Shown here piece by piece: positions 5,856 to 24,516 of a DNA stretch of 43,197 bases. Position 1 is the first letter of the stretch, and each line of letters opens with the position of its first letter. The notes under the pieces are model-generated. The model saw only the letters and a program-made list of their open reading frames with translations. It did not search any database and was not told where the DNA came from. The position numbers and the translations under genes were made by a program. Origin of the DNA: Planctomycetota bacterium (GTDB lineage Bacteria; Planctomycetota; UBA1135; UBA2386); the NCBI GenBank assembly GCA_020425925.1, contig JAGQRB010000379.1:1-43197 (forward strand), read 5' to 3'.

Positions 5856-6389
5856 CTACGCCGAAGTCTCGATCGCCTCGATCTCCCGTAACAGCCAGCT
5901 GCGCGCCACGGCCCACTTGCGATCGAGCTGACGACGTGTGAGCGCGAGCACCTCACCGGTCTCCTTGCCGTCGAGCCCGGCGAAGAAGCGCAGCTCGACG
6001 ATCTGCGCGAGGTCGTTGTCGAAGCCCGCGAGCCGTTCGAGCGCGATGTCGAGCGAGGTCACCCGCATGTTGCACTGCTCGAAGATCGCGAGCTGCTCGT
6101 CGAGCGCGACCTGTTCGCGGCCGCCGGCGCGTTTGCCCGCGGACCGTGCGCGCGCGTGGTCGACGAGGATCCGGCGCATCGCCTGCGCCGCGGTGCGCAG
6201 GAAGTGCAGCCGGTTCTCGAAGCCGAGGTCGGCCTTCTGCAGCTTGAGCCAGGCCTCGTGCACGAGCGCGGTGGTCTGCAGGGTCTGGCCCGATGCGCCG
6301 TCCCGACGGATCCTATGCGCGAGCCCGCGCAGCTCGCCGTAGACGACCGGAAACAGGTCGCTCTTCGCGTCGGAGGGGCCCGGTGCCAT
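5856..6389 (-). CDS. ECF-type RNA polymerase sigma factor (planctomycete TIGR02999-like)
   Basis: This is a 177-residue sigma-70 family factor. The N-terminal region 2 carries LFPVVYGELRGLAHR, LVHEAWLKL and FLRTAAQAMRRILVDHARA, typical of the planctomycete/acidobacterial ECF group. Region 4 near the C-terminus has LAQIVELRFFAGL, then a helix-turn-helix ending in RQLDRKWAVARSWLLREI. ATG 6389 was chosen because upstream codons are Arg/Ser-rich and unlike the family, and because a TACGCT box lies 7 nt before it. The gene is divergent from a kinase/WD40 gene, and the two starts are separated by 67 bp. This group of sigma factors commonly travels with Ser/Thr kinases, so the two probably act in one signalling route. 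That link is inferred from position. No anti-sigma factor is seen. Confidence 0.93.
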   Translation of the reverse strand: MAPGPSDAKSDLFPVVYGELRGLAHRIRRDGASGQTLQTTALVHEAWLKLQKADLGFENRLHFLRTAAQAMRRILVDHARARSAGKRAGGREQVALDEQLAIFEQCNMRVTSLDIALERLAGFDNDLAQIVELRFFAGLDGKETGEVLALTRRQLDRKWAVARSWLLREIEAIETSA

Positions 6390-6396
6390 CTCCGAG

Positions 6397-6402
6397 AGCG
6401 TA
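6397..6402 (-). promoter_or_regulatory. TACGCT -10-like box before the ECF sigma gene
   Basis: Read on the minus strand, GATACGCT is followed by 7 nt (including GGAG directly against the start codon) and then ATG 6389. The GGAG is too close to serve as a normal Shine-Dalgarno, which favours leaderless initiation from this box. It lies 41 bp from the opposing box at 6444-6449, so both promoters are packed into the same short interval. Confidence 0.4.
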
Positions 6403-6443
6403 TCGGACGCGCGGGAATTTTCGTGCCACGTCGACGCCCGGTC

Positions 6444-6449
6444 TATTCT
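6444..6449 (+). promoter_or_regulatory. TATTCT -10-like box before the kinase/WD40 gene
   Basis: TATTCT is followed by 7 nt (no Shine-Dalgarno) and ATG 6457. It matches the TAYNCT-N7-ATG layout of the divergent sigma gene. It is a candidate leaderless promoter. No clear -35 was found, which could mean use of an alternative sigma factor. Confidence 0.4.
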
Positions 6450-6456
6450 CCGCGCG

Positions 6457-9400
6457 ATGGTGGAACGCACGGAACAGGAGACCGAGCGCCTCGCGCTGCG
6501 CACCTACGAGGCTCTGCTCGACGTGCCGGCCGGCGAGCGCGAGGCGCGTCTGGACGAGCTCCGGGCCGACCAGGCCGTGCGCGCGCGCGTACGCGAGCTG
6601 CTGGCGCGCGATTCGAATGCGGCCGCGCGTGCTCGCGGCGCCGAGTTCGATGCGCTGACCGAACTGCTCGGCGACCGCGTGCCCGAGGTCGCCGGTGCGA
6701 TCGGGGGCTACGAGATCGTGCGGCAGATCGGGCGCGGCGGCATGGGGGAGGTCTACGAGGCCCGCCAGCGCGATCCGGCGCGCACCGTGGCGATCAAGGT
6801 GCTGCGGCACGGCCTCTTCGACGCTGACGCGCGCCGTCGCTTCGAGGACGAGGCGCGCCTGCTCGCGCACCTGCGTCATCCCGCGATCGCCCAGGTCATA
6901 GAGGCTGGCGTGCACACCGAAACGACGGCCACAGGCACGCGTGAGCTGCCGTTCCTCGTGCTCGAGTACGTGCCCGGGGCGCGCACGCTGGTCGACCACG
7001 CGCAGCACGAAGGGCTGCCGCTCGCGGCGCGGCTGCGGCTGCTCGTCGAAGTTGCGCTCGCCGTGCACCATGGCCACCAGAAGGGTGTCATCCACCGCGA
7101 TCTCAAGCCCGCGAACCTGCTCGTCGGCGAAGACGGTCGCCCGAAGGTCATCGACTTCGGGGTCGCGAGCGTGCAGGGTGGCGAGCTCGCTCGCACGACT
7201 GCGATGACGCAGGCCGGCCAGGTGATCGGCACGATCGGCTACATCGCGCCCGAAGCGCTCGCGGGCGAAGCCGACGTCGCCGACGTGCGTGCCGACGTCT
7301 ACGCGCTCGGAGCCGTGGCCTTCGAGCTCGCAACCGGGGTGACGCCGTTCGATCTCGACGGCGTGCCGCTCGCGGAGGCCGCGCGCCGGGTCACCACGAC
7401 CTCGCCGCGGCGGCCGCGCGAAGCTGCGCCGGGCGTCGACCCCGACCTCGCCGCCGTGCTGCTGCAGGCGATCGCCAGAGAGCCGGCCGATCGCTACGCG
7501 TCCGCAGCAGCGCTGGCCGACGATCTCGGGCGCTGGCTCGGAAGCCAGCCGGTGGTCGCCCGGCGACCCGGTGCCGCGCGCCGACTGCGGCTGTTCGCGC
7601 GCCGCAACCCGCCGCTCGCGGCCGCGATCGTGGCGCTCCTGCTCGTGATCGTCGGTGCGCTGGCGGGCGTGCTGTGGATCCAGCACGCCGCGATAGCGAC
7701 CGCGGAGCGCGACGGCTATCGCACCGGGATCATCGCCGTGGCCGCGATGGCCGACACCGGGGAAACCGGCCTGGCGCACGATCTGCTCGCGAACGCGCCG
7801 CCCGGCGAGCGCGCGTGGGAGTGGCGGCACCTCGACCTCGCGTTCGAGAGCAGCGAACGCGGGAACGCACCGTTCCGGGCCTACGAGCCGCGCGGGACCT
7901 CCGAGTCGGGGGCCTACGAGTGGAGCCGTCAGGTGCTCGCGGATTTCGATCTCGACCGTGATGCGAAGCGGCTCGTGGTCGGTCATCCGAACGGCAAGCT
8001 GCTCGTGCTCGACGCCGCGGACGGCACCGAGCTGGCCGCGTACGACCTCGATGCCGACGTGCGTTTCGTGCGGTTCGCCGGCGAACACGCGGTGTTCTGC
8101 GCCGGACTCGGCGATCGGGCGCCGATCCGCCTCGTCGATCTGCGCGACGGCAGCTCGCAGCGGCTCTACGAACTGCCGGATCGCGGCGTCGTGAACTCGG
8201 TCGCGGTCTCGGACGATGGCCGTTTCGGTGCCAGCGCCGGCGCGACCTCGCCGTTTCGCGGTGGCGAGATCCTGGTCTTCGACCTGGCGCGCGGCGCGCG
8301 CCTGCATCGGCTCGGCAACGACGACGATCCGCCCGTCCTGCGCGTCGAGTTCGCGGCCGACGGTCGCTACGTCTTCGCCGGCAACTTCCGCGGCGAGATC
8401 ACGCGTTGGGACCTGCGTGCCGAGGGCGGTCCGCAGGCGCTGCGGATGCGTGCCGAGCGCTTCGAGAAGCACGGCAACCTGATCTCCTGTCTTGCCAGGT
8501 CCACGGACGGCAAACGTCTCGCATCGGTCGGCGGCGAATCGATCGCCGTCTGGCAGATCGACTCGCTGCAGCTCGAGGCAGTCATGACGGGGGCGATCCA
8601 GGAAGTCGGTTGGACACCGCACGGTGATCAGCTGGTCGTTTCGCAGCGCAAGAACCCGATCGTTGCGCTCGCCGCGATCGCGGATGGGCCGGCGCTGCTC
8701 AGCGCGCCCGGGCTGGGCCATGAAGCCATGCTGAGTCGGATCGTCGCCATCGAACAAGGTCGCCGCGTGTTCACCTCGGCCTACGACGGCACGATCCGCG
8801 TCTGGAGGCTCGATCGCCTCGCCGCCCGACACGCCTTGAACTGGCACACGAAGGCCGTGCGAGCGGTTGCGGCCTCGAACGACGGGGAGCGAGTCGTCTC
8901 GATCGGCAGCGCCGACCGGCTCGTGGTATGGGATCGCGCGAGCGGTCGCCGGCGCGCCGCCCTCGAGCTGCCGCAGCGGGTCAACGCGATCGCCGCCGAT
9001 CCGGGGTCGGACCAGTTCGTGCTCGCGGGTCGCGGCCTCTGGCGGCTCGATTCGCTCGAGGCGCCCGCGCTGACGGCGCTCGGATCGATCGACGGTGAGC
9101 TCAATGACGTCGCGTGGCGACCCAATGGCAGCGCGTTCGCGACCGCGAGCAGCGCCGGGGTGGTCACGCTCCACGACCCGCAGGGCGGGGCCCTCGTCGA
9201 GCGAACGGTGGGAGGTGGAGCGGCGATCAAGCGCGTCGCGTTCTCCGCGTCCGGTGAACGCTTGCTGACGGGCACGGTCGCGGGCGCACTGGAGGAGTGG
9301 TCCGGCACCGATCTGACGTCCCACCACACGATCGGTGAGGTCGGCGAAGTGACGGACATCGCGTATTTGCCCGGAAGTGACGAGCACGTGCTCTCGGCCT

Positions 9401-9696
9401 CGGTCGACCGTCGGCTGATCTTGTGGCGTCGGCACGGAGACGATGCGTTCGAGCCCCAGGAAATCGACCGCGGCCGATTCCTGCAGCGCATCGAGTTCCA
9501 TCCGACCGAGGCGCGCATGTTCACGTGCTCGACCAACGGTCGCGTCACGGTCTGGGACACGACCGATTGGCACCGCATCGTCACGCTGCCCGGCCATCGC
9601 ACGATGATCATCGACTCGTGTTTCGTGCCGATGTCCGACGAGCTCGTCACCAGCGGGATGGACCGCACGGTGCGGATCTGGCGCACGGCGCGATGA
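6457..9696 (+). CDS. Membrane Ser/Thr protein kinase with WD40 sensor domain
   Basis: This is a 1079-residue Hanks-type kinase receptor. The catalytic domain spans about residues 85-345: a glycine loop GRGGMG at 92-97, Lys114 in VAIKVL, catalytic Asp215 in HRDLKP, DFG Asp233, and an APEAL element in the activation segment. One hydrophobic helix at about 387-408, preceded by Arg-rich residues, predicts a single membrane span with the kinase inside. Residues about 480-1079 form WD40-type blades, seen as repeated WxxD/VWD and SxDGxxxxSxGx elements, giving a propeller on the far side of the membrane. The first 80 residues are helical and unassigned. All kinase catalytic residues are present, so it is probably active. 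It is divergent from an ECF sigma factor. What it senses is unknown. Confidence 0.95.
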   Translation: MVERTEQETERLALRTYEALLDVPAGEREARLDELRADQAVRARVRELLARDSNAAARARGAEFDALTELLGDRVPEVAGAIGGYEIVRQIGRGGMGEVYEARQRDPARTVAIKVLRHGLFDADARRRFEDEARLLAHLRHPAIAQVIEAGVHTETTATGTRELPFLVLEYVPGARTLVDHAQHEGLPLAARLRLLVEVALAVHHGHQKGVIHRDLKPANLLVGEDGRPKVIDFGVASVQGGELARTTAMTQAGQVIGTIGYIAPEALAGEADVADVRADVYALGAVAFELATGVTPFDLDGVPLAEAARRVTTTSPRRPREAAPGVDPDLAAVLLQAIAREPADRYASAAALADDLGRWLGSQPVVARRPGAARRLRLFARRNPPLAAAIVALLLVIVGALAGVLWIQHAAIATAERDGYRTGIIAVAAMADTGETGLAHDLLANAPPGERAWEWRHLDLAFESSERGNAPFRAYEPRGTSESGAYEWSRQVLADFDLDRDAKRLVVGHPNGKLLVLDAADGTELAAYDLDADVRFVRFAGEHAVFCAGLGDRAPIRLVDLRDGSSQRLYELPDRGVVNSVAVSDDGRFGASAGATSPFRGGEILVFDLARGARLHRLGNDDDPPVLRVEFAADGRYVFAGNFRGEITRWDLRAEGGPQALRMRAERFEKHGNLISCLARSTDGKRLASVGGESIAVWQIDSLQLEAVMTGAIQEVGWTPHGDQLVVSQRKNPIVALAAIADGPALLSAPGLGHEAMLSRIVAIEQGRRVFTSAYDGTIRVWRLDRLAARHALNWHTKAVRAVAASNDGERVVSIGSADRLVVWDRASGRRRAALELPQRVNAIAADPGSDQFVLAGRGLWRLDSLEAPALTALGSIDGELNDVAWRPNGSAFATASSAGVVTLHDPQGGALVERTVGGGAAIKRVAFSASGERLLTGTVAGALEEWSGTDLTSHHTIGEVGEVTDIAYLPGSDEHVLSASVDRRLILWRRHGDDAFEPQEIDRGRFLQRIEFHPTEARMFTCSTNGRVTVWDTTDWHRIVTLPGHRTMIIDSCFVPMSDELVTSGMDRTVRIWRTAR

Positions 9697-16669: not shown

Positions 16670-17839
16670 TTGTGTGATCCGCTCTGTGTTGCGCCGTTCA
16701 CGTCCGTCTTGATCGATTCCGACAAAGGGATCCGACCCTGCTCCGCCTATGGCGGCGTGGGCAAACACATTCCCGGCAGCGCGGGCATCGGTCGCCTGAG
16801 CCCGGATTGCTCGATCTCGGACGTGATCCACGGCGAGATCTGGCGCGGTGTCACCGACGACTTCGCGAACGGCAGGGTCCCGGCGGGCTGCACCGATTGC
16901 ATGAACCGCGAGCGGCAGACCGGCTACTCGAAACGGAAGTACTTCTACCGACCCAACTGGCGGAGCGGGATCACCTTCCTCGAGGTCAACTCGACCAACC
17001 TCTGCCCGCTGCAGTGCCGCCACTGCGGCCAGCATCTGTCTCACCGCTGGGCCAGACAGCGCGGCGCTCCGGTCCACAAACCCGACAGCGCGCTGCTGCT
17101 CAAGAACCTCCGCGAGCTGGATCTCTCGCATCTCGAGCGCGTCGCGTTCAAGGGCGGGGAGCCGATGATGAACTCCGACGTACCTACCGTGCTCGCCCAT
17201 CTGCAGGACATCGGTCGGCTCTCCGAGGTCACCGTGGTGTTCACCACCAGCGGCAGCCTCATCCGCGAAGACGTCGTGCCGTGGCTCAGCGCTGCGAAGC
17301 GGACCTACTTCGGCATCTCGATCGACGGCATCGACGAGGTGCAGACGTACATCCGGCACGGTCCCTCCAATGTCGCACGCATCGACGACTTCGTTCGTTT
17401 CTACTCGCAGGTGCCGCGAGTCGCCTTCGGCATGCAGCCGTCGGTCATGATCTACAACGTGTTCTCGCTCGATCGCATGGCCGAATGGTGGCGAGGGCTT
17501 CCCGGTCGTGTCCCCGGCAGCGTGGTCGGTGGACCGCGCTTCGAGAACATGGTCCTGCTGCCGCCGGAGCTGTCCGTGCGCTGTCTGTCCGACGCGACGC
17601 GCGCCCGCCTCGCCGACCGCTACGAGCAGCTCGACCCGAAGCTGTACGCGAACGTCGTGCGAACGCTGCGGCTGCCGTTCGCCGGCGCCGAGATCCACGA
17701 TCAGTTCGTGCATCTCACCCGCAAAGTCGACCGGATGTTCGGTCGCCCGGTGCTGGAGAGCGTGCCCGAGCTCGCACCTGAGCTGGAGCTGCTCGGTTCC
17801 GAGGCCGACCCGGCGGCGGGGAACGGCGCGTCGGGCTAG
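16670..17839 (+). CDS. Radical SAM protein with N-terminal twitch-type cluster domain
   Basis: This is a 389-residue enzyme. The radical SAM core begins at about residue 100 with CxxxCxxC (Cys112, Cys116, Cys119; LCPLQCRHC), followed by KGGEPMMN (SAM-binding GGE motif) and GISIDGIDEV. Ahead of it, Cys2, Cys6, Cys24, Cys74 and Cys77 (CVAPF ... RPC ... GCTDC) fit the N-terminal 'twitch' half-SPASM domain, which would hold an auxiliary [4Fe-4S] cluster. Such enzymes often modify peptides or activate maturation targets, but no precursor peptide or partner is adjacent. TTG 16670 was chosen: the frame has no ATG or GTG upstream before a stop, the N-terminal Cys pattern starts here, and a strong AGAAGGGGG Shine-Dalgarno sits just upstream. 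Substrate unknown. Confidence 0.85.
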   Translation: MCDPLCVAPFTSVLIDSDKGIRPCSAYGGVGKHIPGSAGIGRLSPDCSISDVIHGEIWRGVTDDFANGRVPAGCTDCMNRERQTGYSKRKYFYRPNWRSGITFLEVNSTNLCPLQCRHCGQHLSHRWARQRGAPVHKPDSALLLKNLRELDLSHLERVAFKGGEPMMNSDVPTVLAHLQDIGRLSEVTVVFTTSGSLIREDVVPWLSAAKRTYFGISIDGIDEVQTYIRHGPSNVARIDDFVRFYSQVPRVAFGMQPSVMIYNVFSLDRMAEWWRGLPGRVPGSVVGGPRFENMVLLPPELSVRCLSDATRARLADRYEQLDPKLYANVVRTLRLPFAGAEIHDQFVHLTRKVDRMFGRPVLESVPELAPELELLGSEADPAAGNGASG

Positions 17840-18079: not shown

Positions 18080-18715
18080 ATGAGCCCGGCATCGCTCGAC
18101 TTTCCGACCCTGCTCACCGCCGCCCGCCGCGGCGATTCGTCGTCGCTGGACACGCTCTGCTCCGTCCACTACCCGACGGTGGAGCGCATCGCACACCGTG
18201 AGCTGCGGGTCGAGCTCGGCGCCAACGCCGGCAACCTCGTGTCCCTGTTCAGCACCGGCGACGTCGTGCAGGACGTTTTCCGGAAGGTGCTCGCGAGCCT
18301 CGACGGCTTCGAGGGCACGACCGAGGGCGAGTTCGTCAACTACGTCGCGACGGCGGTGCGCACGCGTCTGCTCGACCTCGTGCGCTTCCACCATGCCGTG
18401 CGCCGGGATCGTCGCCGAACGACGCACGAGGACGGCGCGTTGGCGCAGCATCCCGACCCCGACCAGCCGGTGCGCAAGCTCTGTGCCGACGAGCAGGTCC
18501 GGATCTACTTCGCGATCCTCGACGGCTTCGAGGCCAGGGAGCGCGCGCTGCTGGTGCGGCGTCTCGACGGCGAGGCGACGTTCGAGATGCTCGCCGAGGA
18601 GCTCGGCTTCCCGACGGCGGACGCGGCGCGCAAGGCGTTCAATCGCCTGCATGCGCGGCTGCTGATCCGGTTGCAGCAGAGCGGCGTGTCGGCCGACGCC
18701 GGAGACATCGCGTGA
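18080..18715 (+). CDS. ECF-type RNA polymerase sigma factor
   Basis: This is a 211-residue sigma-70 family factor, first gene of an overlapping operon. Region 2 contains DVVQDVFRKVLASLDGFEG and FVNYVATAVRTRLLDLVRFHHA; region 4 has FEARERALLVRRLDGEATFEML and a helix-turn-helix ending in ARKAFNRLHARLLIRL. ATG 18080 was preferred over an upstream GTG at 17951 because the intervening Pro/Arg-rich codons do not resemble a sigma N-terminus. Its TGA overlaps the GTG start of the kinase gene by 4 nt, so the two are translationally coupled. The 240-bp interval before it (17840-18079) has no gene; TATGTT at 17903-17908 is a weak -10 candidate. The sigma-kinase coupling implies that the kinase modulates this factor or shares its regulon. 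Confidence 0.92.
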   Translation: MSPASLDFPTLLTAARRGDSSSLDTLCSVHYPTVERIAHRELRVELGANAGNLVSLFSTGDVVQDVFRKVLASLDGFEGTTEGEFVNYVATAVRTRLLDLVRFHHAVRRDRRRTTHEDGALAQHPDPDQPVRKLCADEQVRIYFAILDGFEARERALLVRRLDGEATFEMLAEELGFPTADAARKAFNRLHARLLIRLQQSGVSADAGDIA

Positions 18716-21174
18716 CCGGTGGCGGCTCCGAGCGCGAGGACCGCCTCGAGCAACTCGTCGCCGACGCCTTGCACGAGCTCGAGCAGGGCCACGCGCTCGA
18801 TCTCGACGCGCTCTGCGCCGACGATCCCGAACTGAAATCGGCCGTGGCGGAGACGATCGCGCTCGCCGGGGCGCCGGGGTATCGCCTGCAGACCAAGGCG
18901 GCGGGTTCGCTCGCGGGGCAGGTGTTCGGCGGACGCTACGTGCTGACCGAGTGCATCGGCTCCGGCGCGATGGGGGCGGTCTACCGCGCCGACGATCTCG
19001 ACCTCGGCCGAACCGTCGCCATCAAGTGCCTGCGCACGGAGTTGCTGCACGGCAAGGAGAACGAGCGCCGCTTCGAGCGCGAGGGCGAGGTGCTCGCTCG
19101 ACTCAGTCATCCGTCGATCGCGGCGATCTACGATCGCAAGCGTTCGGAAGACGGGGCGGCCTACATCGTGATGCAGTACGTCGACGGTATCTCGATGCAG
19201 CATGCGCTCGAGAACCGGGCGGCGCTGGGCAAAGACGGCTGCATGCCGGTGCGCGAGGCCGTCGAGCACGCGACCCAGCTGGCGCGCGCGCTCGAGCTCG
19301 TGCACGAGAACGGCATCGTGCACCGCGACATCAAGCCGTCCAACATCATGCTCTCGAGCCGCGGTCCGGTGCTGATCGATTTCGGCATCGCCGCGCTCGG
19401 GGCGCACGAGACCCTCGCCGAGGGCACGCGCGGTGTCGGTACGCCGGCCTACATGGCGCCCGAACAGCTGCGGAGCGACGCGCCGGCCGGTCCGAGCGTC
19501 GACATCTACGGCCTGACGGCGTCGCTCTACCGCGCGCTGACCGGCAAGGCGCCGTACGAGGGAACGCCGGCCGAGGTGCTCGGCGCGATCCCGCTGCGCG
19601 ATCCGACGCTGCCCGCGACGCTGCGCCCGGATCTGCCGCGCGACCTGCTGGCGATCCTCGACGTCGGCCTGAACCGCGATCCGAGCCAGCGCTACGCCTC
19701 GATGCGGGGCCTGCGTGAGGATCTCGAGGCCTTCCTCGCACACGCGCCGGTCAGGGCACGCTACCCCGGCGCGCTGGCACGGTTCGGCCGGCGGGTGCGT
19801 CGCTCGCCGGCGGCCCTGGCGGCGAGCGCGGTGGCGCTCGCGTTCGCGATCGGCCTGCTCGGGTTCTGGGGCTACGGCGAGTACGAGCGCGATCGGCGCG
19901 CCCGGATGCAGCGCGCGCACGACGAGGCCAGCGCACAGCTGCAGCCGATGCTGACGCTGTGGAATCCCGCCGATCGCGCGATGCCTGACGACGAAGCCCG
20001 CCGGCGCGAGTTCGAGCTGCTCGACCGCGCGGTGGCGAACGCCCTGCAGCCGCTGCCGACGCTGGCGACGCGCGCCGCCTTCCGTTGGGACCAGGATCGA
20101 CGCGAGGACGCGGTCGCCGACATCGAGACCCTCGCCCGGCGTCTGCCGGGACCGGTGACGGCGTTCCTGGCAGAGGCCTATCGCGACGCGGTCGCGGCCG
20201 AGGCGGCGGCGCCGGTGATCGACGGCGCGCCCGTGCCAACGACCGCGGAAGACGTCTATCTGCTCGCGTTCCACGAGCTGCGCCGCCGCAACTTCCGGGT
20301 CGCGCGCGACCTGCTGTTCGACCCCAGGCTCGATGCCTACGACCCCGCACTGGAGCAACGGCTGTTGATCGAGATGGACGGTCTCGACCGCCGACCGGTG
20401 GAGGAGTGCAAGGCCAAGGCGCTCGAGGCTCACGCCGCGATCCTGCGCATGGAGGAGCGCTGCGGTCGCACGACGGCGATGACCGCGCACCTGCGGGGGG
20501 TCGCGCTGCTGTACCAGCAACTCTACGAACAGGCGCTCGCCGCGATCTTCGAGGGCCTGCGCCTCGCGCCGCATTCCGCCAACCTGCACGAGAATGCCGG
20601 CGTGGCGCTGCGGCGGCTCGGCGGGCTCGACGCGGCCGCCGAGCACCTGAGCCAGGCGATCGCGCTGCGGCCGCACACGCTGTCGGCCTATCGCACGCTG
20701 TTCTGGGTGCACCTGATGCGCAGCCAGGCCGATCGGCCCGAAGCGTGGCAGCAGGCCGTCGATCTGCTCGAGTCTCCCGCGATGCCGGACGCGTGGCGCG
20801 ACCGGCTGCGCGGCGAGCTCGACCTCGACCTCGCGATCGGCCACCTGCTGCACGGCGAGCCCCAACTGTCGCGCGAGTCTGCCGATGCCGCGCTGACGGC
20901 GTGGCAGCGCTCCGGCGGCGGCGACGAGTTCAAGGTCGCCGTTGCGACCTGCCTGAGCGAGGGGCGGCAACCGTTCGCCGACCTGGCCGCGCTCGCGGCC
21001 GACGAGCCGTCGCAGTGGTATCGCACGCTGATCACGCTCGGCCTGATGCCCGAGGAACTCGGGCAACGCGACACCGAAGCGATCAAGACACTCCTGCTGG
21101 CGTTGGTGCGCGAGAAGGCTCCGAGGGCCGCGATCGACACCTGGCTGTCCACCAACCTTCCTTCCAAACGATGA
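18712..21174 (+). CDS. Membrane Ser/Thr protein kinase with TPR C-terminal region
   Basis: This is an 820-residue Hanks-type kinase starting at GTG 18712, overlapping the stop of the sigma gene (GTGA). A short N-terminal helical region precedes the kinase domain at about 78-340. That domain has a loop GSGAMG, Lys105 in VAIKCL, catalytic Asp206 in HRDIKPSN, DFG Asp223 and a GTPAYMAPEQL activation segment, so all key residues are present. A hydrophobic span at about 366-388 gives one membrane helix. The remaining ~430 residues are helical, with tetratricopeptide-type repeats most evident at about 600-690 (LHENAGVALRRLGGLDAAAEHLS). TPRs bind proteins, so this is likely the sensor or partner-binding part. 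The end overlaps the next start (ATGA at 21171). The regulated partner is unknown. Confidence 0.94.
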   Translation: MTGGGSEREDRLEQLVADALHELEQGHALDLDALCADDPELKSAVAETIALAGAPGYRLQTKAAGSLAGQVFGGRYVLTECIGSGAMGAVYRADDLDLGRTVAIKCLRTELLHGKENERRFEREGEVLARLSHPSIAAIYDRKRSEDGAAYIVMQYVDGISMQHALENRAALGKDGCMPVREAVEHATQLARALELVHENGIVHRDIKPSNIMLSSRGPVLIDFGIAALGAHETLAEGTRGVGTPAYMAPEQLRSDAPAGPSVDIYGLTASLYRALTGKAPYEGTPAEVLGAIPLRDPTLPATLRPDLPRDLLAILDVGLNRDPSQRYASMRGLREDLEAFLAHAPVRARYPGALARFGRRVRRSPAALAASAVALAFAIGLLGFWGYGEYERDRRARMQRAHDEASAQLQPMLTLWNPADRAMPDDEARRREFELLDRAVANALQPLPTLATRAAFRWDQDRREDAVADIETLARRLPGPVTAFLAEAYRDAVAAEAAAPVIDGAPVPTTAEDVYLLAFHELRRRNFRVARDLLFDPRLDAYDPALEQRLLIEMDGLDRRPVEECKAKALEAHAAILRMEERCGRTTAMTAHLRGVALLYQQLYEQALAAIFEGLRLAPHSANLHENAGVALRRLGGLDAAAEHLSQAIALRPHTLSAYRTLFWVHLMRSQADRPEAWQQAVDLLESPAMPDAWRDRLRGELDLDLAIGHLLHGEPQLSRESADAALTAWQRSGGGDEFKVAVATCLSEGRQPFADLAALAADEPSQWYRTLITLGLMPEELGQRDTEAIKTLLLALVREKAPRAAIDTWLSTNLPSKR

Positions 21175-22637
21175 CCCGAACCGCCATGAACCACCTTCCT
21201 CTCGTCGTCGCGTTCGCGACCCCGCTCTGTCTGCTGCCGGCCCAGTCACCGCTGTCCGGCTTCGCGCAGGGGGTGGTCGTCACCGATACCCTGGCGCCGT
21301 CCGCGCCGCGCACCGTGATCCAGAAGCCCGCCGGCGACATGGTCCTGACACCGTTCGTCGCGGTCGATCCGGCGGCGCCGACCTACACGGTCGAAGCCCT
21401 GCTGCACCATCTCGGTGCCGGCGCGAGCAGCGCGGCGGCACACTTGTCGATGAGCGCGATCTCGACCGGCAACGACGTGCTGCCGCTCGTCGCGGGGCCC
21501 TTCACCGGCGACGAGCCTGACTACTACGTCGTGACGACGGGCGGGTTCTGGGCTGCCATCGCGTTGTCCTTCACCGAAGCGGCGCTGCCCGATCCGACCG
21601 ATCCGGGCAGCGCCTTCGCGCTCCGGTACGCCGCGCACCCCGGGGCGGGGATCGGCATCGACCTGTTCAGCTACTGGTTCGACTCCAACGTCGGTCTGCC
21701 GCCGAACCTGATCGACACGGCCCACTTCGAGCTCGGTCGCGAACACACGGGTGCCGACCTGAACGAGCAGGTCACCGGCCTCGATACCTACATGCCGGCC
21801 GTCGTCGAAGCCCGCGGCATTCCGACCAACGTGGTGCAGATCGTCGACCAGTGGTACTTCGCGTTGACGCCCGGATCGGCGCAGTACATCAGCGCCAACG
21901 CGAACTGGGGGACGTTCGATCCCGCGTTCAGCTGCGCCAAGGCGGAGATCGGCGCGAACTACGTCTACCAGGCGCACTGGTCGAACGGGCAATGGTCGGA
22001 GATCAGCGTGCTGTTCACGCCGGAGGACCTCGGTCTGACCGAAGGCGGCGACATCGACGCGATCGCGTTCTATCGCGGCCAGAACTCGCAGGACCACATC
22101 GTGTTCTCGCTGACGGGCGAGAGTTCGGCCGGGCGCGAGCAGATCCTGGTCGGGGGACCTGATATCCGTGGTCCGGGCATGCCGGGCAACAAGCCGGTGC
22201 GCGCCGGTGACGGCGGTGACATCCGGATCAAGATCGGCGCCCGCAACGACACCGATGTCGATGCCATCTGCACCTACGACCCGGATGCCCAGGACGCCTA
22301 CGGCTACTGGCTCGCGCTGCCGGTGGAGAATCGGACCCCGGTCGGGATCGGCAGCAGCGTGGCCCGCTACCGCACCTACGACGACAACGGCAACCTCACG
22401 GGCGAGGAGTTGCTGCTGCAGGTGACGGGCCTTCCGACCCCGAGCGGCCAGGCCGGCTGGGCCGTGTCGTTCGACGGTGCGCCGCCGATGCTGGTCCGCA
22501 AGAACACCTCCGGCGATCGGGCGCAGACCACTCTGCCGCTGCTTCCCGGCCAGGCGATAGACGAGATCGTCGTGGTCGCGGCGTACGTGTCGGGCAACAC
22601 GGGCTGGCGCAGCTGGGGTCTGAAGCTGCTCCAGTAG
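21171..22637 (+). CDS. Secreted protein of unknown function, coupled to the kinase gene
   Basis: This is a 488-residue exported protein of no family I recognise. ATG 21171 overlaps the kinase stop codon by 4 nt (ATGA) and was preferred over ATG 21186; both lead into the signal peptide NHLPLVVAFATPLCLLPAQS. The mature protein is acidic and strand-rich. It has a central segment with FDSNVGLPPNLIDTAHFELG and IDAIAFYRG, and a later Asp-rich part. It lacks the shared C-terminal module of other secreted proteins in this window. Being translationally coupled to a sigma factor and a kinase is the main clue: it could be the extracellular ligand, sensor component or output of that system. That is inference. 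Codon use matches the neighbours. Confidence 0.85.
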   Translation: MTRTAMNHLPLVVAFATPLCLLPAQSPLSGFAQGVVVTDTLAPSAPRTVIQKPAGDMVLTPFVAVDPAAPTYTVEALLHHLGAGASSAAAHLSMSAISTGNDVLPLVAGPFTGDEPDYYVVTTGGFWAAIALSFTEAALPDPTDPGSAFALRYAAHPGAGIGIDLFSYWFDSNVGLPPNLIDTAHFELGREHTGADLNEQVTGLDTYMPAVVEARGIPTNVVQIVDQWYFALTPGSAQYISANANWGTFDPAFSCAKAEIGANYVYQAHWSNGQWSEISVLFTPEDLGLTEGGDIDAIAFYRGQNSQDHIVFSLTGESSAGREQILVGGPDIRGPGMPGNKPVRAGDGGDIRIKIGARNDTDVDAICTYDPDAQDAYGYWLALPVENRTPVGIGSSVARYRTYDDNGNLTGEELLLQVTGLPTPSGQAGWAVSFDGAPPMLVRKNTSGDRAQTTLPLLPGQAIDEIVVVAAYVSGNTGWRSWGLKLLQ

Positions 22638-22824: not shown

Positions 22825-24516
22825 ATGAAGACGAATCGAATCCCCTCCCTGTCCCTGCTCGCCGCGTTGGCGGGCACCTCCTTCGGCGGCCCGCTGGTCG
22901 CCCAGACCGCGCAGACGCAGATCGCGCCGGTTCCGTCCGACGTCGCGCCGTGGAGCTGCGGCAACATCTACTACGTCTCGATCGCGGGCAGCAACAACAA
23001 CGCCGGCACGCTCGCATCGCCGTGGCGAACGGTGACGCACGCGGTCTCGCAGGCCCTGAGCCAGACCTCGAGCGGCAATCCGATCACGATCAACGTCCGC
23101 GCCGGCAGCTACTCCGCCGGCGAGTCGTTCCCGATCGAGTTGCCGGCCCGCGGCATCAAGCTGCAGGCGTTCGAACCCGGTGTCACCATCAGCGGCACGC
23201 AGTTCGAGCCGGTGTTGCGCGTCGACCGTGCCGGCGCGTCGAACGGCAGCTGCGGCGTGACCCCCGGCACGGTGATCCGCGGGCTGACGCTGCGCGACGG
23301 CATCACCGGCATCGAGATCGACACCTCGCTCGCGGGTGGCGTCGCCAACACTCCCGATCGCGTGCACGTGCACCGCTGCCAGCTGGTGCAGAACCGCGGC
23401 AACGGCATCGCGATCTGGACGCGCGCCGGGCACTACTCCCAGCACGTCGTCGAGGAGTGCGAGATCGCCTTCAACGCCAACTCCAACGGCTTCGGCACCG
23501 GCGTGAACGCGCTCAACCTCGGCGGCACCTCGACGAACCTGATCCGCGCCAACAACATCCACGACAACGAGGTCGGCATCAACGTCTTCGGCACGCCGAC
23601 GACTACCGAGCCCCGCATCCTGTCGAACTTCGTGCGCGATGCCGAGTGGGGCATCGCCCTGCTCGACTGCAGCGCCCGCGTCGTCAACAACACGCAGGGC
23701 TACGGTCGCCCGTTCTCGTTCAATCAGCCGGTGTTCGGCGTCATCCTCGCGGGCGGCGGCAACGTCGTGCTGGCCAACAACATCATCTGGAACCCGCCGG
23801 GCTACGCCGTCGGTGCCGCAGGGGTCACCGATCTCAGCAACGGCTCGACCGGCGTGGTGACGCAGGCGAGCAACTGGATCCTGTCGACGGTCGGTGCCGG
23901 CAATCCGCCGCAGTTCGTCGCGCCGCCGACCGACCTCCATCTGCAGGCGAGCTCGCCGCTGCTGGACGCCGGCACCAACTCGTACGTGCTGCCGACGATC
24001 AACGTCCAGGTCGGCCCGCTCAGCGCACGCGCCGACTGCGCCGTCGACATCGACGGTGACTCGCGGGTGCTCGACTTCGCGCAGGACACGGCGCCCGACG
24101 TCGAGATCGGTGCCGACGAACGCAGCGATGGCGGGGGCGCGCCGGTGCGGCTGTCGTGCCAGCAGCTCGACGCGTTCGGCAATCTGCACACCAACGGCGT
24201 GCCGACGGCGGTCAACATCGACCTCGGTGGCATGCCGGGCGATCTCGCCGTGGTGTTCTTCTGGATCCCGCAGAGCGTCGACCCGATCCCGTACCACCGC
24301 TTCACGACACTCGGCAGCTGGAGCATGCCGGGCAACAACGAGGTCCGGCGGGCCGGTTCCGGCGTCGTCGGCACGGCGGGCACCTTCACCGTGCCGCTGG
24401 TCATCTCGCCGGCGCTCGGCCTCGAGCTCGAGGTGTTCCTGCAGGGCGCGACGCTGAACGGCGGCACCGGGGCCGGTGCGGTCAGCAACCGTCTGCTGCT
24501 CGAGATCGACGAGTAG
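22825..24516 (+). CDS. Secreted right-handed beta-helix (DUF1565-like) protein
   Basis: This is a 563-residue exported protein. ATG 22825 has a clear GAGAGGAA Shine-Dalgarno and a signal peptide ending around VAQT. Residues about 48-110 match the DUF1565-type start of parallel beta-helices (YYVSIAGSNNNAGTLASPWRTVTHA). Residues about 110-400 are beta-helix coils, with repeated short turns such as NRGNGIAIW, IHDNEVGINVF, DAEWGIALLD and NNIIWN. Such folds are common in polysaccharide lyases and surface adhesins. I see no catalytic residues that allow a lyase call. Residues about 415-435 have DIDGDSRVLDF, a calcium-loop-like segment. The final ~120 residues end in LGLELEVFLQG and SNRLLLEI, like the shared C-terminal module. 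The next gene is a glycoside hydrolase, which makes a polysaccharide-related role plausible. Confidence 0.9.
   Translation: MKTNRIPSLSLLAALAGTSFGGPLVAQTAQTQIAPVPSDVAPWSCGNIYYVSIAGSNNNAGTLASPWRTVTHAVSQALSQTSSGNPITINVRAGSYSAGESFPIELPARGIKLQAFEPGVTISGTQFEPVLRVDRAGASNGSCGVTPGTVIRGLTLRDGITGIEIDTSLAGGVANTPDRVHVHRCQLVQNRGNGIAIWTRAGHYSQHVVEECEIAFNANSNGFGTGVNALNLGGTSTNLIRANNIHDNEVGINVFGTPTTTEPRILSNFVRDAEWGIALLDCSARVVNNTQGYGRPFSFNQPVFGVILAGGGNVVLANNIIWNPPGYAVGAAGVTDLSNGSTGVVTQASNWILSTVGAGNPPQFVAPPTDLHLQASSPLLDAGTNSYVLPTINVQVGPLSARADCAVDIDGDSRVLDFAQDTAPDVEIGADERSDGGGAPVRLSCQQLDAFGNLHTNGVPTAVNIDLGGMPGDLAVVFFWIPQSVDPIPYHRFTTLGSWSMPGNNEVRRAGSGVVGTAGTFTVPLVISPALGLELEVFLQGATLNGGTGAGAVSNRLLLEIDE

Follow-up and report, generated by a model that had tools for sequence, protein, structure and literature searches.

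In canonical ECF sigma factors, an acidic D-A-E-D motif in region 2.2 forms a contact with RNA polymerase. The ECF43 sigma factors carry an STTA/QTTA motif that is phosphorylated on the threonine at position 3, and they are activated by a neighbouring kinase, as described for the pairs EcfP/PknT of Vibrio parahaemolyticus and EcfK/PknS of Xanthomonas citri (PMC8999054, PMC13147305). PknS possesses periplasmic TPRs, the role of which is described as still open (PMC13147305). In planctomycetes, activation by a kinase has been proposed from the gene neighbourhood for the groups ECF59, ECF61, ECF62 and ECF217, which are linked to Ser/Thr protein kinases (PMC8999054), and the TPR kinases of these organisms are in general predicted to have their TPRs outside and their catalytic part in the cytoplasm (PMC11032199). 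Finally, in the GlnH–GlnX–PknG system of Mycobacterium and Corynebacterium, an extracytoplasmic protein signals inward to a TPR Ser/Thr kinase (PMC11032199). How the kinases of phosphorylation-activated ECF sigma factors perceive their signal is still an open question, and the locus described here offers a concrete candidate for an outer component.

The locus lies in a window of 43,197 nucleotides (the whole stretch of DNA that was analysed) from a bacterium of a sparsely studied branch of Planctomycetota. It comprises the genes of an ECF sigma factor, a TPR Ser/Thr receptor kinase (K) and an exported protein, here called S, with the following features in and after the triplet:

18080..18715, + strand: ECF sigma factor gene, 211 aa; ATG at 18080, TGA stop ending at 18715
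18251..18262, + strand: codons 58-61 of sigma region 2.2, S-T-G-D in place of the canonical D-A-E-D; Ser58 and Thr59 are the proposed phospho-acceptors
18712..21174, + strand: TPR Ser/Thr receptor kinase gene, 820 aa; GTG start at 18712, in a GTGA overlap with the sigma stop
18928..19731, + strand: Hanks-type catalytic domain of the kinase, residues 73-340; HRD and DFG present
19810..19881, + strand: single predicted transmembrane helix of the kinase, about residues 367-390; strongly basic on its N-side
19894..21171, + strand: predicted extracytoplasmic TPR region of the kinase, residues 395-820 (weak TPR matches, topology prediction)
21171..22637, + strand: gene of exported protein S, 488 aa; ATG at 21171, in an ATGA overlap with the kinase stop
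21171..21245, + strand: signal peptide of S (...LLPAQ/S); alternative start at 21186
22825..24516, + strand: gene of an exported right-handed beta-helix protein (DUF1565), a candidate target outside the core triplet

The first-pass annotation had described an ECF sigma factor, a membrane Ser/Thr kinase and an exported protein joined by GTGA and ATGA overlaps, and these coordinates were confirmed. Its reading of the second overlap as translational coupling of the third gene stands only in part. The ATGA overlap is present, but the signal peptide is cleaner when S is started from an alternative in-frame ATG at 21186 (+11) than from the ATG at 21171 and, in the nearest orthologous locus (L024), S starts at +7 or +13 after the kinase stop and not at −4. 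For these two reasons, coupling of S to the kinase at −4 appears possible rather than fixed. The sigma–kinase overlap of −4 (GTGA) is kept in L024 and, among the 58 loci with the order sigma-K-S, 32 sigma–kinase junctions offer a −4 start, versus 18 kinase–S junctions. Scans of the triplet region for sigma-70 promoters, terminators and Rfam families were all negative, alignment of the upstream region with that of L024 revealed no sigma-specific promoter and, in agreement with the earlier annotation, no anti-sigma gene lies within the triplet.

A radical SAM protein is encoded directly upstream on the same strand (16670-17839), separated from the triplet by a gap of 240 bp. The downstream beta-helix gene is also syntenic after the triplet in L024, with 73% identity; it is more conserved than S and is a candidate regulon member. 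Elsewhere in the window, a second sigma factor with an ECF43-like motif, LQTTALVHEAW (5859-6503, minus strand), adjoins a divergent large kinase gene (6343-9693, plus strand), forming a sigma–kinase pair of a different type from that of the triplet.

A single-sequence search with the window S was positive in 10 of 101 genomes, counting the host; nearly all the homologues lay about 3.5 kb from an independently found sigma homologue. Iterative HMM searches of all the sigma loci showed that the vast majority also encode this kinase together with S. The S profile (A1), searched on its own, was found in 27/61 relatives, 46/154 genomes of the host's class and 7/246 genomes across the phylum, including two of a different class (loci L146, L147 and L148); the additional S loci nearly all have the kinase, and mostly the sigma factor too. 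A scan of genome contigs gave no match with the window S alone and 18 loci, nearly all in planctomycete MAGs, with a closer subset of S sequences. All the S members found belong to one phylum and mostly to one class.

Applied to the 102 S homologues (E<1e-15), a strict rule of direct adjacency and common strand places 91 beside this kinase type. The exceptions are nearly all contig edges or cases with an insert-lengthened N-terminus: six of the 11 lie at contig ends (L031, L072, L101, L123, L139 and L144), L083, L087, L099 and L148 have a kinase upstream of S but beyond the distance limit, and L125 offers only about 1.1 kb of sequence upstream of S. With 124 Pkinase matches in the 7.76 Mb of the host genome, few genes picked at random would lie next to a kinase, and the S–kinase adjacency is far beyond chance. 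The module is also paralogous within genomes, with up to 11 S matches per genome. The first-pass annotation had named conservation of the triplet across genomes as a check, and the finding of S mainly without the sigma–kinase pair as a refutation; conservation is borne out by 79 complete same-strand triplets, and the opposite distribution of S is observed.

Three gene orders were found among these 79 triplets: sigma-K-S (58), K-S-sigma (20) and S-K-sigma (one), with L116 resembling a second locus of the last order. Mapped onto the ML tree of S, the labels for gene order require six changes, and the well-supported branches alone force at least three changes for the sigma-K-S label. The existence of three orders and several rearrangements implies maintenance of the linkage rather than a frozen arrangement: sigma factor, kinase and S are co-inherited as one unit. 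The restriction of the members to one phylum, and mostly one class, would also be expected if three unrelated genes had simply stayed together by common descent. This passive linkage is rejected as extremely improbable, given that the gene order was reshuffled repeatedly with all the partners retained, that the linkage has survived deep divergence (S homologues are often only 20-30% identical to one another) and that the module is present in a second class. The K-S-sigma version (L078-L093) occurs, usually as a single copy, in many genomes belonging to the host's family. Its conservation exceeds that of the sigma-K-S paralogues, and it is possibly the housekeeping member.

Pairs of kinase and S with no adjacent sigma factor also exist (L103, L104, L131 and L134, the last two from a one-contig genome), and their persistence indicates that S is tied mainly to the kinase. 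No firm sigma–kinase pair without S was found among the loci examined. Two loci, L037 (C596, in the host genome) and L077, have no S downstream, and a contig end cuts the upstream side of both; in the genome that carries L077, an S-sigma-K order would be consistent with the S found at the end of L031. The host genome also contains neighbouring sigma and kinase genes of another type (L040-L045), which are transcribed divergently and lack an S. One triplet of the one-contig genome G147, L132 (3530-8473), is possibly a decaying copy: the reading frames of its kinase and S are interrupted by stop codons, with split ORFs and, in S, an internal TAA.

The protein S was described in the first-pass annotation as belonging to no known family, and the searches agree: it has no match in Pfam, NCBIfam, PHROGs, PADLOC or PDB sequences. 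Judged from its sequence, it is the founding member of an undescribed family of exported proteins, which the module adds to those on record. Members are about 480 aa long, nearly every S examined bears a signal peptide, with the A-Q cleavage context kept across the family, and they share the motifs DIDAxSxGxD, YFSVT, DIDALAVD and DDVDAxCxxDP. Repeats of about 90-120 aa inside S (hhalign E ~4e-6) leave its fold unsettled. The AlphaFold model of the window S was poor (pLDDT 52, pTM 0.57) and its Foldseek matches were given no weight for this reason. The family member L150 was modelled better (pLDDT 85, pTM 0.87), with Foldseek returning only low-probability propeller matches (LRP6-like, probability ~0.2-0.5) and local beta-sandwich matches, so fold comparison by Foldseek provided no functional lead. 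A near-invariant cysteine in DDVDAxCxxDP (C367 in the window S) is found in 74/79 members and is the sole cysteine of the S domain in 13. Redox sensing through this residue was weighed and set aside, as most members carry further cysteines.

The kinase is of the Hanks type, with a Pkinase domain (PF00069; 1.1e-43, 150 bits against a cut-off of 31.7) and both catalytic motifs. Among its full-length relatives, HRD is present in 58/59 and DFG in 59/59, with both in 58/59. The TPRs give weak Pfam matches. Hydropathy indicates one transmembrane helix in 44/59 relatives and, around it, the mean net charge is +6 before and +1 after; a single helix with this charge difference predicts that the TPR part lies outside and the catalytic part in the cytoplasm. 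By hydropathy, charge and weak TPR matches, the predicted layout is thus that of a PknS-like TPR receptor kinase.

The window sigma factor matches the NCBIfam sigma70-ECF superfamily (TIGR02937) with 46.4 bits, above the cut-off of 42.9, and has weak, sub-threshold matches to Pfam sigma families. It falls outside Sig-70_plancto1 (TIGR02984), with 37.1 bits against a cut-off of 183.75. In region 2.2, the motif S-T-x-D is found in 77 of the 79 aligned family members, with Ser58 in 77/79 and Thr59 and Asp61 each in 79/79; ordinary AEDL motifs occur among the other sigma factors of these loci. S-T-x-D is a distinct sigma motif that predicts which residues are switched.

Taken together, we consider it probable, from these sequence comparisons, that the kinase receptor has S as its outer subunit and that the kinase switches on the sigma factor by phosphorylating Ser58/Thr59. 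In the circuit that we infer, with S–kinase binding, sigma phosphorylation, a regulon and a signal as its elements, S would be exported to act outside the inner membrane, where it would bind, or be bound by, the TPR region of the kinase and make kinase activity depend on a ligand or the envelope state, either activating the kinase or holding it off. The kinase would phosphorylate its cognate sigma factor on Ser58 and/or Thr59, at the site of the usual D-A-E-D polymerase contact. The phosphate would restore negative charge, allowing the sigma factor to join the polymerase and switch on the operon and nearby genes, among them possibly the beta-helix gene at 22825, whose product is exported. Phosphorylation would act in place of an anti-sigma factor, which would not be needed. 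This last idea had been put forward in the first-pass annotation together with that of a signalling circuit with its own outer component. The former gains from the replacement of DAED by S-T-x-D across the 79 sigma factors and the latter from co-inheritance, with phosphorylation and the physical S–kinase link as the predicted steps.

Several observations count against this circuit. Position 3 of the motif, the phosphosite of ECF43, is mostly G/H/R/Q here (also S/A/N), the host pair C596/L037 lacks S downstream, and no kinase–S fusion protein was found. Furthermore, the conserved Asp61 means that the sigma factor is not wholly uncharged, and it might be partly active when unphosphorylated. The retention of Asp61 would also suit S and the kinase acting through other substrates, with the sigma factor regulated mainly by its amount and S-T-x-D a tolerated variant, as would the K-S pairs without a sigma factor. 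Such an arrangement appears rather improbable, since the near-invariance of Ser58 and Thr59 is unexpected for a tolerated variant, the distances of the kinase catalytic domain and the sigma factor are tightly linked (partial rank correlation 0.57), and EcfP and EcfK provide a precedent for sigma phosphorylation.

The outer parts of the proposed receptor were compared in the same way. Between the window and L024, identity is about 77-78% for the sigma factor, 80% for the kinase catalytic domain, 62% for the kinase ectodomain and 44% for S, so divergence grows outward. The partial rank correlation of distances is 0.35 between S and the kinase ectodomain (0.40 within one gene order) and 0.01-0.04 between S and the catalytic domain, and, when 60% subsamples were drawn, the S–ectodomain link was the strongest one of S in 94% of them, or 86% when a single gene order was considered. 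This suggests that S tracks the outer TPR part of the kinase and not its catalytic part, although the correlation is suggestive only because the distances are large and saturated and rates differ, and two fast-evolving extracytoplasmic parts could correlate by rate alone.

Exported proteins are frequent targets of ECF sigma factors. It could be that S is such an output, a surface or envelope protein under sigma control and placed in the operon for autoregulation, with the TPR region of the kinase sensing alone. S is the last gene in the commonest order (58/79), and the next gene downstream also encodes an exported protein. We regard this as unlikely, though less so than action through other substrates: K-S pairs persist without an adjacent sigma factor, S precedes sigma in the K-S-sigma loci, S distances follow the kinase ectodomain more than the sigma factor, and one particular kinase type is found at nearly every S-bearing locus. 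Returning to S as the outer subunit, a more speculative extension is that the many paralogous sigma-K-S modules of a genome are parallel private channels, forming a new class of envelope receptor in which the TPR-kinase chassis would be common to all, a fast-diverging S would determine which ligand or partner is recognised, and phosphorylation of the Ser-Thr pair in sigma region 2.2 would replace the anti-sigma factor.

In comparison with the described systems, the triplet is closest to the ECF43 pairs, with which it shares a sigma factor without the full acidic DAED, its first acid being absent and Ser/Thr available, an adjoining transmembrane Hanks-type kinase and the lack of an anti-sigma gene; as in PknS, the TPRs of its kinase are predicted on the outer side. 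However, ECF43 carries STTA/QTTA with the phospho-Thr at position 3, whereas the triplet sigma factors carry S-T-x-D (77/79), with Asp retained and the candidate sites at positions 1-2. The triplet sigma factor thus appears to resemble ECF43 in its working, without being shown to belong to that group. The triplet also has a linked, dedicated exported third protein, and none is mentioned for ECF43 in the parts of the reports available to us (PMC8999054, PMC13147305). The groups ECF59, ECF61, ECF62 and ECF217, compared by their descriptions, share with the triplet sigma factor the phylum and a neighbouring Ser/Thr kinase (PMC8999054). In the literature searched, a scope that leaves aside the main ECF classification, neither an exported third component for these groups nor a description of the triplet was found. 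In GlnH–GlnX–PknG, the sensor reaches a cytoplasmic kinase by way of a distinct membrane protein (PMC11032199), whereas the triplet has a kinase that is itself membrane-spanning, a sigma factor as its proposed output and an S for which no relative was detected. Planctomycete sigma–kinase pairs are already known; within the same literature, the new part is a dedicated third protein that is exported, is inherited with the pair and belongs to an undescribed family; this partner makes the question of signal perception testable with three proteins.
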